From NCBI RefSeq assembly GCF_037479095.1, contig NZ_JBBGZW010000002.1, positions 248,001 through 312,000 of the forward strand: a DNA stretch of 64,000 nucleotides, given 5' to 3'. The notes under the pieces were generated by a model. The model saw only the letters and a list, made by a program, of their open reading frames with translations. It was not told the origin of the DNA and searched no databases. The translations under genes were made by a program, and so were the position numbers. The DNA is from Pantoea nemavictus (GTDB lineage Bacteria; Pseudomonadota; Gammaproteobacteria; Enterobacterales; Enterobacteriaceae). Shown in pieces: positions 2,408-17,593 of the stretch (within the stretch, counting starts at the first letter, position 1; every line of letters starts with the position of its first letter).

Positions 2408-2869
2408 ATGCACATCAGCCCGTTGGCGCAGCAGCCACAGTTATTCGATGCGGTCACCCAGATGTTGCATCGTGAATGGTCAGATTTACCAAACTGGCGC
2501 GATGCATCTGTTATTCAGCAGCGCTTGCAGGCACGCAACGCGGATCGAGCTAAAACGGTCACGCTGGTAGCGACCACCACAGCTGGCGAGTTAATGGCGA
2601 CCGCCAGCATCATCCACTACGAATTAAGCGATCTCAGCGAGCGCGAGTTTTGGCTCGGCGAGGTCATTACCGCGTCAGAACATCGTGGCAAAGGCCTGGC
2701 CAGTGCTTTGGTAACGCAATTAATTGCCGAAGCGCGTCTGCGTGGCATCGCGGCGCTGTGGCTGTATACACCCGACCAGCAAGCGCTCTATCGCCGCTTC
2801 GGCTGGCAGGATGTGGAACAGCGCGAGATTGCTAATGAAGATGTGACGGTGATGAAGTTGGTCATTTAA
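2408..2869 (+). CDS. GNAT family N-acetyltransferase
   Basis: A 153-residue GNAT acyltransferase. The acetyl-CoA pyrophosphate loop is EHRGKGLASALV, preceded by strand FWLGEVIT, with the late motif LYTPDQQALYRRFGW. The ATG at 2408 follows AGGA. Upstream in-frame codons overlap the putative SDR tail and are unlikely to be used. It ends by overlapping the stop of the convergent NUDIX gene. The acceptor substrate cannot be told from sequence. Confidence 0.83.
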   Translation: MHISPLAQQPQLFDAVTQMLHREWSDLPNWRDASVIQQRLQARNADRAKTVTLVATTTAGELMATASIIHYELSDLSEREFWLGEVITASEHRGKGLASALVTQLIAEARLRGIAALWLYTPDQQALYRRFGWQDVEQREIANEDVTVMKLVI

Positions 2870-3288
2870 GATGATTTCGCCAGCGCCTGCAGTGCCGCCA
2901 GTCCATCACGCGTAATCCAGCTACGCAGCGGCGCAAATAACGGTTCAGGTAATTCCTCGGGCGCGAACCAGTGCCAGCCGCTGCACTTCTCCGGCTCCAT
3001 CAGCTGCGGCTCGCCGCTAGCGTCCTGCGCCACCAGTAACAGCGTGATGTAATGCTTGTTGACCTCGGGAAACACATCGCTCACAAAGGCGCCGTTTTGC
3101 ACCTCACCGAGTTGCAAGCCGGTCTCTTCCAGCACTTCGCGTCGCGCGCAGGCTTCCGGCGCCTCACCAAATTCCAGATGACCGCCCGGCGCCGACCAAT
3201 CCCCTGCGCCATGGCTACCTTTACGCTGCCCTAACAACAGTTTCCCATCGCGAAAAATTAACACGCCGATGCCCACTTGTGGCGACAT
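2866..3288 (-). CDS. NUDIX hydrolase (nucleotide triphosphatase type)
   Basis: A 140-residue NUDIX protein. The box begins GGHLEFGEAPEACARREV and continues LEETGL, with the expected metal-binding Glu cluster (REVLEE). The N-terminal strand is VGIGVLIFRDGKLLLGQRKG. Length and layout fit small pyrophosphohydrolases of the MutT/NUDT15 type that clean up (d)NTPs. The ATG at 3288 has AAGGAG upstream. The gene is convergent with GNAT and lies just downstream of the MFS gene on the same strand with ~80 nt between, so cotranscription is possible. Confidence 0.85.
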   Translation of the reverse strand: MSPQVGIGVLIFRDGKLLLGQRKGSHGAGDWSAPGGHLEFGEAPEACARREVLEETGLQLGEVQNGAFVSDVFPEVNKHYITLLLVAQDASGEPQLMEPEKCSGWHWFAPEELPEPLFAPLRSWITRDGLAALQALAKSS

Positions 3289-11717: not shown

Positions 11718-13658
11718 TCAACTCAGCTGGAAACGCCCAACGGTGTTCGCCAGCTGCGATGCCTGATCTTCCAGCGAACTGGCGGCGGCGGACATCTCCT
11801 GCACCAGCGCGGCATTCTGCTGCGTGGTGCTGTCCATTTCATTGACTGCGATAGTAACCTGGCTGATACCGCGCGCTTGTTCATCGGAGGCAATAACAAT
11901 TTCACCGATGATGGTGCGCACCGAATTTACCGCCTGCGTCATCTCCTGCATGGTTCTGCCGGCATCCTGCACCAGCTGCACCCCGCTACCAACGCGCTGC
12001 GTCGACTCCTCAATCAGCGCACCGATATCCTTCACCGCATTGGCGCTGCGCTGCGCCAGATTCCGCACTTCCGATGCCACCACGGCAAAACCGCGCCCCT
12101 GCTCACCGGCGCGTGCGGCTTCAACTGCGGCGTTAAGCGCCAGAATATTGGTCTGGAAGGCGATGCTATTAATAATCGCCGTGATATCGCCAATCTTCTT
12201 CGCGCTGTCGTCGATCTGCGCCATGGTTTGCACCACCTCACCCACCAGCGTTTCCCCACGGCTGGCGATGTGCGTGGCGTTATCGGTCAGCGTTGTCGCC
12301 TGATGCGCATTGGTGGCGTTGTGTTTCACCGTCGCGGTGATCTGCTCCATGCTGGCAGCAGTTTGCTCCAACGCGGCAGCCTGCTGTTCAGTGCGTGATG
12401 CCAGATTTAGGTTGCCGCTGGCGATCTCACCCGCGCCCTGACGTACCGATGAACTGGCGTCCTGAATCTGCCCAACGATCTCACGCAGCTGGTTTTGCAT
12501 GGTATGCAGCGCATAGAACAAGCTGCTGTTATCGCGCCCTTTCAGGATGATGACGTTATCCAGTTTGCCATCGGCCACCGCCAGCGCGATGGTTGCCGCC
12601 TCCAGCGGTTCGCCACCAATGGGTTTCAGCACCTTACGGTTAAACAGCATGCCAAGCAGCGTACACACCACCAGAATACTGATGATCATCAGGATTACCG
12701 CGTGGATCAGCTGGCGATGCGCGGCGGCCATCACTTTGCTCACCGGCGCCACCACGCCGAGATACCATTGCTGATCGCTGTTACCGATTGTCACCGGCTG
12801 CCAGGTCACCAGCGCATCTTCACCGAGCAACGCATCGTGTTGTTCCGTTACGCTATGGCTGAAGTTGTGGGTATCGGCCTTCCACGCTTTGCTGGTCTGG
12901 CTTTTATCCGGGTACGAAACCACCTTGCCAGCACTGGAGAGCAGCATCGCATAGCCGCTGCCATCCCAGGGTTTGATTTTATTCACCCTCTCCTGCAGCG
13001 AAGCCAGCGAAATATCCGACGTCACTACGCCCCACAGCTTGCCCTGGCTGACAATCGGTGCCGCGACGGAGGTCAGCAGCGTTGGCACGCCGTTGTAGGC
13101 GTAGCTGTAAGGCTCAATCAGCGTGTCTTTCTGGCTTTTCTGCGGCAGCAAATAGTAATCGCCCTGACCTGGCGTGAAGATTGAGGTCAGCGGATGCAGG
13201 TTGAAATTGCCAGTTTGGTCGCGATCGACAAAAAACGCGTAGCGACCTTTTGGCGCGGCATTCGGCTGGGCGGCAAACTCCGCGTCGCGGCCGTCAAAGG
13301 CGTTTTCTTCGAAGATCACTGAGATCGAGAGATAGTCTGGATTGTCGCGCAGTGCCGATTCCATCAGTTTGTCGGCGACCTTACGATCCTGAATGCCCGC
13401 TGCGGGCAGCGCGATCAGGCTATGGCCGAGGTTGTGGGCAACATCGCGCGCGTAGCTGAGTTGATGCTGAATTTGCAGCGCCTGGCTCTGCGCGATCTGT
13501 TGCAGATAGTTTTCGGCCAGCGACTTTTGTTCATTACTGGATTGCCAGCTCAGCACGCCGATGGTTACGGCAAACCCGAGCGTGATGGTCAAGGCGCCCG
13601 TCAGCAGCATCTGCGTGCGGGTGCTCATGGTTTTCTTAGGTGATGCGTGTTTGGCCAT
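11718..13658 (-). CDS. Methyl-accepting chemotaxis protein (dCache sensor)
   Basis: A 646-residue transmembrane chemoreceptor. It has TM1 at about residues 16-37, a periplasmic double-Cache domain to about 310, TM2 at ~315-337, HAMP ([16 protein letters not shown]), and a cytoplasmic signalling domain with the hairpin tip around [21 protein letters not shown]. The sensor resembles those for amino or organic acids; the ligand is unknown. The C-terminus ends GRFQLS without a CheR-tethering pentapeptide, so adaptation would rely on other receptors. No che genes lie nearby. Confidence 0.9.
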
Positions 13659-13807
13659 TATGGCGCTCCTGGAGTTGACACTTTTCGGTAATCAGAACCA
13701 CTCCCTGTGCGCGTACATCCCTTTGAAGAGACTATCGGCGCGCGGCGGGGGAACTTGATGGCGAAGGAGGTCGGATCAGAGCGCGGAATCAAAGCATCGC
13801 ACATTCC
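13659..13807. other. Intergenic stretch upstream of the chemoreceptor
   Basis: About 150 nt with no supported gene, holding the chemoreceptor promoter side. Next to it, 13808-13845 is the left part of a REP element interrupted by the IS110 element. Confidence 0.5.
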
Positions 13808-13845
13808 GTAGCGGCGCGATTTATCGCGCAATAAATTGCGCCGCT
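13808..13845. repeat. REP-like palindrome, left part, interrupted by IS110
   Basis: GTAGCGGCGCGATTTATCGC and the returning arm up to GCGCCGCT are present. The missing end (ACGGAATGTGCGC) continues at 15055 after the IS. The flanking CACATTCC on the left and GGAATGTG on the right confirm that one palindrome was split. Confidence 0.85.
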
Positions 13846-14053
13846 TGTATCTTGAATGTGTTGCTGGTTAGCTACCAGCAACATGAAACGGAGGCAGCTT
13901 TTTGCGCCGCTTAAGACCCGATCTTGCTTCGTAGCTTTAAGCCCTCCGTTTCTCCTTTCACGCCAGCAACTACTCTGAACGGTAACCAGAAGCTCTGACT
14001 TCGTATGTACAAGGCTAGATGGCGTGATGGTTTAAGTGAAAGGGAGATATCCG
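13846..14053 (+). ncRNA. Putative IS110 bridge RNA
   Basis: Three successive hairpins precede the transposase. The first has a 10-bp stem (13859-13868/13874-13883). The second (stem 13885-13894/13943-13952) encloses TTGCGCCGCT at 13902-13911, identical to the left target, and CGTAG at 13930-13934, complementary to the right target CTACG. The third (stem 13959-13965/14020-14026) encloses ACGGTA at 13979-13984, identical to the element's right terminus 15046-15051, and TACAAG at 14008-14013, complementary to CTTGTA at the left junction (13844-13849). This is the layout of target- and donor-binding loops in IS621-type bridge RNAs. The RNA ends are not determined. Confidence 0.75.
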
Positions 14054-15037
14054 ATGTTCTGTCTTGGTATTGATGTCAGCAAAAACAAACTCGACCTCTG
14101 CCTGTTCCCCGGCAACGGCAAAAAGAAAACGAAATCCATCAAAAATCAGGTCGGCGTAGAACGTGACATCTGCGACTGGCTCCAGAAGCAGAAGTGCCCG
14201 CCAGAGCAGGTGATGGTGGTGATGGAAGCGACCAGCGTCTATCACGAAAACGTCGCTTACGGGCTGCACGGGAACACGCCCGTGACGGTCTGTATCGGCA
14301 ATCCGCAACGGGTCAGGGAGTTTGCCCGCGGAATGGGTATCCTGACCAAAAATGACGCGGTCGACGCCTGGGTGCTGGCCCGTTACGGCGAGCTGAAACA
14401 GCCCGATGCCTGGGTTCCGCCGCCACCGGAAGTCCGCAAGCTGAAAGACCTGCTGCGTCTGCGTGACGCCATCGTTGCAGATGTGCAGCGCGCGATGAAC
14501 ATGCTCGCGAAGGCGAAATCAACCCTGACGGCGGGCGAGGTGACCGAATCGCCTGAGTGCACAAAAAAATCGCGGGAAAAGGATCTGAAGCGAATAAACG
14601 CGCTGATTGACGACCACATGGATAAGAATGATGGTCTGAAAGATGATCTTAAGCTGCTGGAGTCGATAAAAGGTATCGGCGGCGTAGTGGGAACGACCAT
14701 GCTGTCGGTGCTGCGTACGTGCCAGTTCCGCAATGCGGGTCAGGTAGCGGCGTGGCTGGGCGTGGTGCCGGTCGAGAAGACGTCAGGCAGTTCGGTGAGA
14801 GGGCTGGCCCGGATGTCGAAAACCGGTCCCGCCGACGTGAGAGCGAAGCTGTATATGGCCGCGATAGTAGCGGCAAGGTGGAATCGCCCCGTAAGAGCGC
14901 TGTATGAAAGGCTGATGGCGAAGGGCAAGCCAGCCAAAGTGGCGCTGGGAGCGGTGATGCGCAAACTGGTCCATCTCTGCTTCGGTGTGCTTAAAACACG
15001 AGAGCCGTGGAACGAAAACTACGTAGCTACCGCTTGA
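14054..15037 (+). CDS. IS110 family transposase (DEDD recombinase)
   Basis: A 327-residue recombinase. The N-terminal RuvC-like DEDD domain has D7 (LGIDVSKN), E58 (VMEAT), D101 and D104 (KNDAVDAWVLARYG), nearly the same spacing as IS621. A coiled-coil segment at about 120-200 precedes the C-terminal domain GIGGVVGTTML and LGVVPVEKTSGSSVRG, whose Ser cluster (244-247) holds the expected catalytic serine. The ATG at 14054 follows AAGGGAGA; a start 18 nt upstream lacks such a site. The gene is intact, so the element may be active. Confidence 0.93.
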   Translation: MFCLGIDVSKNKLDLCLFPGNGKKKTKSIKNQVGVERDICDWLQKQKCPPEQVMVVMEATSVYHENVAYGLHGNTPVTVCIGNPQRVREFARGMGILTKNDAVDAWVLARYGELKQPDAWVPPPPEVRKLKDLLRLRDAIVADVQRAMNMLAKAKSTLTAGEVTESPECTKKSREKDLKRINALIDDHMDKNDGLKDDLKLLESIKGIGGVVGTTMLSVLRTCQFRNAGQVAAWLGVVPVEKTSGSSVRGLARMSKTGPADVRAKLYMAAIVAARWNRPVRALYERLMAKGKPAKVALGAVMRKLVHLCFGVLKTREPWNENYVATA

Positions 15038-15079
15038 CGTTCAAGACGGTAGCTACGGAATGTGCGCTTTTGAGAGGGC

Positions 15080-15115
15080 GACCGGCATCAGGCCAGCGCC
15101 CAATGCCGGTCTTTT
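15080..15115 (+). terminator. Possible hairpin terminator
   Basis: GACCGGCAT (15080-15088) pairs with ATGCCGGTC (15103-15111), followed by TTTT. It lies between the IS and the end of the PQQ dehydrogenase gene. The T-run fits plus-strand transcription. Its role is uncertain. Confidence 0.35.
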
Positions 15116-15124
15116 CCTTAAGCG

Positions 15125-17593
15125 TTACTTTTTCTCCGGCAACGCATAGGCCAGCACGTAATCCCCAACCGGCGTCTCCATAAAGTGGTGACCGGCAGCG
15201 ACAATCACCAGATATTCACGCCCATTCTGCGTGTAGATCATCGGATTGGCCTGGCCACCCGCGGGCAATTCAGTGCTCCACACCTGCTTGCCGGTATGCA
15301 TATCGATAGCGCGAATCAAATCGTCGGTTGCTGCGGCAACAAAGATTAATCCGCTCGACGTCACCACCGAACCGCCGTTATTCGGCGTACCGATATTAAT
15401 CGGCAAACCGGTCGGCAGACCGAACGGACCATTACGACGCGCCGTGCCGAGCGGACGATCCCAAATGGTGCGACCATCACGCATATCAATAGCGCGAATG
15501 CCGCCGTACGGGGGCTCTTTGCACAGCATGCCGGTGAACGGCAAGCGCCAGCCCGCATTGACGTTGACCGCATAAGGCACGCCAATCTGTGGATCGCCGG
15601 CGCCTTCCGCATGCCCTTCATCGTGTGGGTTGTAAGGAACCTCATCGCGCGGTTTCCAGCCCAACGCATCCGCTTTGGCGCGTGGCACCAGAATGTTGTA
15701 GTTCGGCATATCGTTGTAGTTCGCAATGATGATGCCGCGAGTAGGATCCACGGCAACGCTGCCCCAGTCAGAACCGCCGTTATAGCCCGGATACTCAATC
15801 GAATGACGATCGGCTTCCGGCGGCGTGTACTGGCCCCGGTAGCTGGCCTTCTGGAACTGAATGCGGCATACCAGCTGATCAACCGGGGTTAAGCCCCACA
15901 TATCCTGCGGCGTTAGATCCGGCTTACTCAGATGATGGAACAGCGAATAGGGCTGCGTGGGCGAGCGCTGATCCGGCTCAATCCCGCCGCCGGTGACTTT
16001 ACGCTCCTCGACGCCAAATAGTGATTTACCGGTGCGGCGATCCAACACGTAAATCTCACCTTGCTTGGTCGGCATGATGATAGCCGGGATTTTGCCACCG
16101 TTTTTATCCGGATAATCCACCAGCGTAGGCTGCGAGCCAGGATCGTAATCCCACACGTCTTTATGTGCGGTCTGGAATGACCAGGCAGGTAAACCGGTGT
16201 CGATATTCAGTGCCGTCAGCGATACCGAATACGTGTTCTCCGCCGCTGTCCGCGTGCCGCTCCAGTAATCCCCCGAAGCGTTGCCCACCGGCAAATAGAC
16301 CAGTCCGAGCTTGTCGTCACCGGTGAACGAGGTCCAGACATCTGGCGAACCGCGTTTATAGGCATTCGGCCCGGTTTTCGGCGTCGCGGTATCCGGTGCT
16401 GCCGCATCCCACGCCCACTTCAACTGACCGGTGCGCACGTCGTACGCTTTGATCACGCCCGGTGGGCCAAATGCGCGTTGACCATCAATGGTTTGGTGCG
16501 CCACTACTAAGGTATCGCGGATCACCACCGGCGCGGAGTTAATCGCCACATAGCCGTCATAGGTTTCGCCCATATCCTCAGCCAGATTAACCGTGCCTTG
16601 ATTGCCAAAGCTGCGGCAGACTTCACCGGTTTGCGCATTCAGTTCGATAATGCGTGCGTCCAGCGTGCCGAGAATGATGCGCTGCTGGCAATCGCTGTTA
16701 TCGCCGGCTGGCGCACTCGTCACTGCGCTGTTTTGTCCGGCGGTGACGTGGCTGTTGGTTTGGCTGTCATACCATGTCAGCCCGCGACAGGCCGCGGTAT
16801 AAGGAATGGATTTATCGCTAACTTTAGGATCAAAGTGCCATTTCTCCTTGCCGGTGCTGGCATCCAGGGCAAACACACTATTGCGCGCGCTACAGGTGTA
16901 GAGCGTATCGCCCACTTTAATTGGCGTGTTCTCCCCGCCCCAGCGCGCCTTAGGCAAATCGCCAGTACGGAACTGCCACGCCAGCTTGAGATCTTTGACG
17001 TTGTCCGGCGTGATTTGACTGGCATTGACGAAGCGCTGAGACGCCAGCGATCCGCCATAGGTATACCAGTCGCCGCTGTCCGGCGTGGAGGCTTTGCCGC
17101 TACCGGTATCCGCCATAAAGTTGGCCGAGCCGGCCGCTGGAACGTTGCTGGCCGGCGTTTCATTCAGCGGGGCAAACGGCAGCGCAGCGGCGACGATGAA
17201 AGCGACAATTAACACGCTCGCCAGCACGCGTGAGGTGCCACGACTGACGCGTGGCGCCAGATTAGGCAACTGGAAAGCGAACCAGATGCCCAATATCAGC
17301 ATCAGTGCGAAGCGCGGCACCCAACGCCAATAGTCGAGACCCGATTCATAAATGGTCCAGATTAACGTGCCGATAAACACCAGCGTAAACCAGGCTGCAC
17401 CGCTGGTGCGTTTCATGAAGATCAGCACGGCAGAGATAACTAAACCTATCCCCGCCAGCACGTAATACCAATTACCTCCTAGCGCGACCAGCCAGCCGCC
17501 GCCTGCCGCTAATGCAATGCCGAGCAGCAGCAAAACCGTAGCGAACAAGATATTCCAGAGCGAAAGTCTGGTTATTCGATTTGCGATATCCAA
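15125..17593 (-). CDS. Membrane-bound PQQ-dependent dehydrogenase (glucose/quinate/shikimate family)
   Basis: A quinoprotein of ~822 residues. Five hydrophobic helices (residues ~8-140) anchor it in the inner membrane; the periplasmic part is an eight-bladed propeller with repeated W-docking motifs (LYTCSARNSVFALDASTGKEKW, IKAYDVRTGQLKWAW, YVLDRRTG). Layout and motifs match E. coli Gcd (796 aa), which oxidises an aldose and passes electrons to ubiquinone, but glucose, quinate or another polyol is possible. The TTG at 17593 follows AAAGGGA; a GTG at 17623 lacks a ribosome site. PQQ synthesis genes are not in the window. Confidence 0.87.
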   Translation of the reverse strand: MDIANRITRLSLWNILFATVLLLLGIALAAGGGWLVALGGNWYYVLAGIGLVISAVLIFMKRTSGAAWFTLVFIGTLIWTIYESGLDYWRWVPRFALMLILGIWFAFQLPNLAPRVSRGTSRVLASVLIVAFIVAAALPFAPLNETPASNVPAAGSANFMADTGSGKASTPDSGDWYTYGGSLASQRFVNASQITPDNVKDLKLAWQFRTGDLPKARWGGENTPIKVGDTLYTCSARNSVFALDASTGKEKWHFDPKVSDKSIPYTAACRGLTWYDSQTNSHVTAGQNSAVTSAPAGDNSDCQQRIILGTLDARIIELNAQTGEVCRSFGNQGTVNLAEDMGETYDGYVAINSAPVVIRDTLVVAHQTIDGQRAFGPPGVIKAYDVRTGQLKWAWDAAAPDTATPKTGPNAYKRGSPDVWTSFTGDDKLGLVYLPVGNASGDYWSGTRTAAENTYSVSLTALNIDTGLPAWSFQTAHKDVWDYDPGSQPTLVDYPDKNGGKIPAIIMPTKQGEIYVLDRRTGKSLFGVEERKVTGGGIEPDQRSPTQPYSLFHHLSKPDLTPQDMWGLTPVDQLVCRIQFQKASYRGQYTPPEADRHSIEYPGYNGGSDWGSVAVDPTRGIIIANYNDMPNYNILVPRAKADALGWKPRDEVPYNPHDEGHAEGAGDPQIGVPYAVNVNAGWRLPFTGMLCKEPPYGGIRAIDMRDGRTIWDRPLGTARRNGPFGLPTGLPINIGTPNNGGSVVTSSGLIFVAAATDDLIRAIDMHTGKQVWSTELPAGGQANPMIYTQNGREYLVIVAAGHHFMETPVGDYVLAYALPEKK

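Follow-up and report, generated by a model that had tools for sequence, protein, structure and literature searches.

An IS621-like insertion sequence of Pantoea with a predicted bridge RNA that matches one arm of the host's REP pairs

The element described here is very probably an IS110-group, IS621-like insertion sequence of Pantoea which enters one arm of the host's REP pairs by bridge-RNA-guided recombination. It has exact ends and a conserved fold in its left end, in which four guides match the target and the element ends. Ten copies are found in REPs, two of these sites are found empty in another genome of the species, and guides covary with targets among relatives. The window, which is the whole stretch of 64,000 nucleotides analysed here (G000:C2:248001-312000), belongs to an 886,706-bp contig in a genome of two contigs, and the neighbours of its copy of the element are an mcp gene on one side and a PQQ-glucose dehydrogenase gene on the other. 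Among 94 plasmid records resembling these neighbouring genes, 92 come from Pantoea. The features are listed below by window position and strand.

13799..13829 (-): partner REP arm of the same pair, TCGCGCCGCTAC type, unused as target
13826..13845 (+): left half of the target REP (GCGCAATAAATTGCGCCGCT) with the left target, from copy comparison and the intact REP in genome G028
13844..15054 (+): IS110-family element, 1211 bp, with a CT core at each end (13844-13845 and 15053-15054)
13848..13853 (+): TATCTT, -10-like half of a predicted circle-junction promoter, 17 bp from TTGACG once the ends are joined
13858..14043 (+): predicted bridge RNA (covariance model 152.1 bits, E 8e-44; fold z -3.99)
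13858..13884 (+): 5′ stem-loop, from the alignment consensus structure and the fold
13885..13952 (+): target-binding loop, stem GAAACGGAGG / CCCTCCGTTTC
13902..13911 (+): left target guide TTGCGCCGCT, 10/10 letters equal to the left target of the window copy
13930..13934 (+): right target guide CGTAG, of which GTAG pairs with CTAC
13955..14043 (+): donor-binding loop, stem CTTTCACGCCA / TGGCGTGA...GTGAAAGG
13979..13986 (+): left donor guide ACGGTAAC, 6/7 against the right end ACGGTAG at 15046-15052
14006..14013 (+): right donor guide TGTACAAG, complement of the left end CTTGTA
14054..15037 (+): recombinase, 327 aa, DEDD_Tnp_IS110 and Transposase_20 (Pfam; NCBIfam NF033542; IS621 8wt6)
15022..15057 (.): right-end hairpin, 16 pairs, z -7.8, folded as DNA
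15034..15039 (+): TTGACG, -35-like half of the predicted junction promoter, overlapping the stop codon, from the sequence
15053..15065 (+): right half of the target REP (CTACGGAATGTGC) with the right target, from copy comparison and the G028 empty site

The ends of the element were fixed by comparison of its copies and by two empty sites. Ten copies with 98-100% identity across 1211 bp were detected in the genome, all of them (10/10) inside REPs and at the identical base. Their left non-coding ends are identical, and outside the element no two flanks are related, with an ungapped identity of at most 0.33. Empty sites were sought at two positions in the same-species genome G028 and found at both (2/2), each as an unbroken REP with a single CT; the intact REP reads GCGCAATAAATTGCGCCGCTACGGAATGTGC. 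An empty site for the window copy was sought in Pantoea sp. BRR-3P (L099), where a different repeat was found: the orthologous place, at 2700-3060 of that locus, holds the palindromes GTGCGCATAAATGCGCACCCTAC and GTAGGGTCGCCATTTATGGCGACC, which are perhaps a second REP-like family. The preliminary description spoke of safe intergenic landing sites. An intergenic position is shown for the window copy only, in the gap between the mcp and PQQ-glucose dehydrogenase genes; a stop-to-stop frame of at least 80 codons, of uncertain standing, spans the insertion site at 5 of the 10 copies.

The layout of the element is that of the IS110 group. The left non-coding end of 208 bp (13846-14053) is longer than the right end, which runs about 17 bp past the stop codon; the match to the RNA model is located in the left end, and the core dinucleotide is common to both ends and the target, with precise insertion. 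The IS1111 group, which is marked by sub-terminal inverted repeats of 7-17 bp between the two ends and by an RNA in the right end, was considered and rejected, the predicted RNA here being in the left end and the long inverted repeat lying within the right end.

The recombinase bears the marks of the family in its Pfam domains, its NCBIfam match and the alignment of its catalytic residues. It scored 209.9 bits against NF033542 (IS110 family RNA-guided transposase; cut-off 140) and matched IS621 (8wt6) with an E of 2e-47 in phmmer. Residues D7, E58, D101, D104 and S244 are invariant across the six proteins of alignment A2 and align with D11, E60, D102, D105 and S241 of IS621, the catalytic residues of that enzyme (PMC11208158). 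Compared with any of the nine other copies, the window copy shows one and the same set of 14 substitutions; they are confined to a 107-bp tract (14478-14584) and give 11 amino-acid changes in residues 142-177. A coiled-coil range of 123-188 is given for IS621 (PMC11208158), and by sequence the changed tract is likely part of the corresponding coiled coil. Because 11 changes fall in this likely coiled coil, the enzyme of the window copy may be impaired; the tract may be a mosaic, a mutation cluster or an assembly fault, and the enzyme may be a poor one. Gene conversion from the type found in the same-genus genome G012 was considered as the source. Of the 14 sites, G012 shares the letter of the window at 3 and that of the other copies at 8, and the comparison points to no donor.

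A covariance model built from 12 relatives, all outside the clade of the window element, has its sole match in the 64-kb window up to an E of 10 at 13858-14043. The preliminary description had advised folding 13846-14053 by covariance, and this independent model placed the predicted RNA there with 152.1 bits. Rfam at gathering thresholds matched nothing in the window. When folded, the left end (13855-14036) was more stable than each of 200 dinucleotide shuffles (z -3.99). Its fold consists of a 5′ stem-loop followed by two long stem-loops with guides in internal loops, which is the IS621-like layout. In the alignment of 15 left ends (A1), 18 of the 46 consensus pairs carry compensatory changes, 95.5% of cells are paired against 89.8% in shuffles, and cells changed on both sides number 54, where shuffles average 17.2. 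Slid controls reached at most 52.1% paired, in a control that favours a structure derived from the same alignment, and one of the five measures, the number of further pair types, was unexceptional (42 against 39.1, with 44 of 500 shuffles as high). Among the loci that encode relatives in named genomes the model matched 61 of 80, and in L145 and L154 the match was not beside the matched gene.

The guide strings and cores named in the preliminary description were all located where it had placed them (13902-13911, 13930-13934, 13979-13986, 14006-14013, 13844-13845 and 15053-15054), and all four guide matches converging on the CT core are present. Assuming uniform bases, about 2e-4 exact copies of the 10-mer that forms the left target guide would be expected by chance in the roughly 200 nucleotides of the left end. 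The identity of one loop with the left half of the target is complete (10/10), but the guide extends over the core too (TTGCGCCG+CT). The claimed complementarity of CGTAG to the right half is full with CTACG in 7 of the 10 copies and reaches only through CTAC in the 3 that have CTACA. On the donor side, ACGGTA agrees with the element end as described, but the next letter is A against G, one mismatch before the core. As in an IS621-like bridge RNA, the target guides match the target, the donor guides match the donor, and the core is included.

The identification of the target as a REP is supported by arm counts in the genome of 105 for TTGCGCCGCTAC (TT) and 103 for TCGCGCCGCTAC (TC), against 10 and 9 for reversed-pattern controls. 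By sequence, the repeats have the properties of RAYT-type REPs, with a GTAG foot, a palindromic stem, more than about 100 copies and alternating pairs; the definition of such REPs and a REP table showing the GTAG foot have been published (PMC2817692). The two arms of the host pairs, GCGCAATAAATTGCGCCGCTAC and GCGCGATAAATCGCGCCGCTAC, face opposite ways, and within the ten letters of the left guide they differ only at the second. The window itself holds 17 uninterrupted arms between 4641 and 63187, 9 of TTGCGCCGCTAC and 8 of TCGCGCCGCTAC, many of them paired in opposite orientation; the arm at 13808 is the partner arm at the insertion.

The left target of the ten copies is [T/G]TGCGCCGCT (9 T, 1 G) and the right target CTACG (n = 7) or CTACA (n = 3). 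Copies at sites departing from the proposed target would have spoken against the guides, and the sites did not refute the proposal: 10/10 are in [T/G]TGCGCCGCT, followed by the core and then AC[G/A]. With a guide reading TT, the element occupies nine TT arms, one GT arm and no TC arm. Given the near-equal arm numbers, 0/10 in the TC arm would occur by chance with a probability of about 0.0017, and a TC arm is within 150 bp at 7 of the 10 insertion sites. A relative in the same-genus genome G031 has a guide reading TC; CTAC follows 21 of its 21 right ends, and at the 13 copies where the left end was readable the site was in every case TCGCGCCGCT, the sequence of its guide. This half of the comparison is weak alone, because TC arms make up 549 of the 596 arms in G031, with 47 TT arms, and 13/13 would be expected by chance at about 0.34 (calculated by hand). 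The single copy found in G012, also of the same genus, has guide TC and site TC, and its right end looks decayed. In G125, from another genus, the guide is TATCCACCCT and the three copies all stand after TATCCACCCT. In G030, where right flanks only were read, CTAC was present at 8/8.

Relatives for the wider comparison were found in named genomes with an alignment query; a protein query of the named genomes confirmed none. The first covariation set comprised 15 of 22 readable left ends, near-duplicates and L049 being left out, and its 15 distinct left guides matched their targets at 128 of 150 letters (permuted mean 83.9; maximum 111 among 100,000). The larger set was drawn from 72 sources, namely the window, 15 earlier relatives and 56 of the 80 loci of the alignment query. 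Near-duplicates, L049 and L050 (site mismatch) and L047 (frameshifted) were left out of the earlier relatives, as were 19 loci without a model match and L120, L121, L127, L136 and L159 (N, short, cut or weak left ends) out of the 80. From the 72 sources came 73 matches with 55 distinct guide pairs, each of which was represented by its first row. A right end was located in 34 of the 55, for which at least 6 of 7 donor letters and the CT core were required.

Failure of the guide loops to covary with the target had been named as grounds for abandoning the proposal; covariation was found across the 55 distinct guide pairs. Left guide and left target agreed at 453 of 550 letters, with a permuted mean of 302.1 (sd 8.1) and a maximum of 336 in 20,000 permutations. 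The left match was 8 or more of 10 in 43 of the 55 pairs and 6 or fewer in 5. Left covariation was present separately among the pairs with GTAG right guides (256 against 187.4) and among all others (197 against 125.0). Right guide and right target (n = 34) agreed at 121 of 170 letters (permuted mean 68.3, maximum 93), and a right guide ending in GTAG faced a right target CTAC in 25 of 25 cases, compared with 0 of 9 for other right guides. Contrary cases are L115, L123, L131, L138 and one of two L169 sites, which match at only 4-5 of 10 letters, and the E. coli plasmid loci L049 and L050, which have the guide loop of L055 with a left flank, ATACAGTATCT, unlike the guide. The site of L055 matches its guide 9/10, and the mismatch in L049 and L050 is perhaps a rearrangement. 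The left ends of L156, L110, L158 and L171 begin TTTGTATC, a start which by its sequence suggests that TT is their natural core; the L156 left guide likewise ends in TT and matches 9/10.

Among the 31 guide pairs with a GTAG right guide, 27 distinct best-matching left guide 10-mers were counted. A hairpin target with a stem of at least 6 pairs was present in 18 of these 31, the one G125 copy included having a 7-bp stem, against 1 of the 24 others (Fisher 3e-5). The rule that a GTAG guide means a hairpin target is incomplete, because 13 of the 31 GTAG sites are without such a stem. On a tree of 49 of the 55 guide pairs, from which 6 frames were left out as too short, the GTAG label is clustered, with 7 changes against a shuffled mean of 16.0. 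Of 6 supported independent pairs, on average 1.5 agreed, 0 disagreed and 4.5 showed no difference. The tree test therefore does not separate the link between GTAG and hairpins from descent.

These data bear on three other accounts of how the copies came to be in REPs. It has been suggested that some transposases recognise REP palindromes as regulators do (PMC1525189, Tobes and Pareja), and since the target here is a palindrome, the protein alone might read it, the match in the left end being a leftover or a coincidence. We hold this to be highly improbable, as the guide changes with the target over the 55 guide pairs, including the 24 pairs that lack a GTAG right guide and of which 23 show no stem of 6 or more pairs at the site, and as the RNA structure is conserved with compensatory changes. 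The 10-mer does belong to an abundant repeat, and might be a REP-like sequence captured from the genome; the copies would then have reached their REPs by homologous recombination, or by duplication of a single ancestral site. Such an origin needs copies that share long flanks, and was refuted as far as tested by the unrelated outer flanks of the ten copies; with exact ends, two empty sites indicating precise insertion, and relatives whose guides in the same loop match targets of unrelated sequence, it appears extremely improbable.

Abundance of REPs instead of guide specificity could also set the sites, if the element tolerated many targets and a REP were merely the commonest near match. Mismatches are tolerated, since one of the ten copies is in GTGCGCCGCT and three have CTACA, and in the published IS621 assay 144 of 173 insertion sites were in REPs (PMC11208160). 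Yet no copy is in the equally common TC arm, one base away, although this arm is close by at most of the sites, and an explanation by abundance has in our judgement only the slightest probability. Guidance by a bridge RNA is the preferred reading.

By analogy with IS621, the RNA would be made, the protein would bind it and the reaction would then run. The recombinase would excise the element as a circle, in which the right end is joined to the left end; TTGACG would come to lie 17 bp from TATCTT, and the bridge RNA would be switched on. The target loop would pair on the left with the bottom strand at TTGCGCCGCT and on the right with the top strand at CTAC(G), the donor loop with both joined element ends, and the serine/DEDD enzyme would exchange strands at the common CT. 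On sequence grounds a predicted promoter would be rebuilt at the circle junction: TTGAC with a 17-bp spacer occurs at the joined ends of 28 of the 34 elements with a located right end, the mean best score at the junction is 8.88 of 12 against 6.68 for the inserted left flank, and no sigma-70-like site was found in the inserted form within 13600-15200. The same junction-promoter arrangement has been published for IS621 (PMC11208160).

The right-end hairpin presents CGGTAG-CT-ACG in both orientations and extends across the core into the target. A similar right-end palindrome is present in the G125, G031 and G030 copies and by eye is absent from the more distant right ends examined. Solo right-end palindromes without the rest of the element were noticed at L019 969-1000 (G000:C1:3108330-3108361), L057 (G028) and L062 (G036). 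REP-like outer arms adjoin them, on both sides at L019 and L057, and these two loci have flanks in common in two strains. The solo palindromes look as if the inner inverted end had recombined with a second REP, deleting the element. In G036, loci L067 and L071 have an upstream stretch in common, after which a degenerate right-end palindrome stands in both; they may represent a small repeat family that arose from the end of the element.

The GTAG foot is a mark of RAYT-associated repeats (PMC2817692). We tentatively propose, with somewhat less than even confidence, that REP-seeking bridge RNAs share a design in which the right guide is a fixed GUAG that together with the CT core reads CTAC, complementary to the GTAG foot, and the left guide can vary and spells the stem of the host REP; the element would follow REPs across hosts by its left guide alone, down to a choice of arm by one base. 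The shared GUAG reading the foot of REPs is possibly new: among the papers listed in literature searches no description of a GUAG guide matching the GTAG foot was found, which is no proof of absence. The elements form a natural experiment on bridge RNA specificity, in which the left guides of close relatives differ at the second of ten bases and insertions follow that base between the two types of REP arm. A constant half-site (GTAG) with a host-specific half would make REPs easy to follow across hosts and suggests why IS110 elements are often in REPs. For genome engineering the element adds a further natural combination of guides and targets, in which the left guide is 10 nt long and the right guide has four or five bases.

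The bridge-RNA mechanism and the REP habit are already known, having been published for the IS110 family (PMC11208160, PMC1525189). For IS621, bridge RNAs, their covariation with targets across thousands of elements and insertion into REPs have been reported (PMC11208160). The Pantoea element resembles this IS110-group element of E. coli in its DEDD and Transposase_20 recombinase, its CT core and its insertion into REPs, in a left-end RNA made up of a 5′ stem-loop, a target loop and a donor loop, and in a right target guide that pairs with CTAC (PMC11208160, PMC11208158). It differs from IS621 by its distant sequence (phmmer E 2e-47), by a long inverted repeat inside the right end, and by targeting TTGCGCCGCTAC(G) of Pantoea REPs instead of ATCAGGCCTAC, the target given for IS621 (PMC11208160). 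ISCro4 (9t56), compared by protein only, has the same domain layout over 318 aligned residues (E 2e-47). The IS110 family is the most represented among REP-associated elements (PMC1525189), and the counted copies of ISPpu9, ISPpu10, ISPa11 and ISRm19 are likewise in host REPs (7/7, 7/7, 6/6 and 4/4, respectively), ISPpu9 and ISPpu10 with 2-bp direct repeats (PMC1525189). These four differ in their hosts and REPs and were described before the bridge RNA model, and ISPa11 has been assigned to the IS1111 type (PMC11187229). The relatives in G031, G012 and G125 have the same left end, the right target guide GTAG and host palindromes as targets, and differ in the left target guide, which is TCGCGCCGCT in G031 and G012 and TATCCACCCT in G125.
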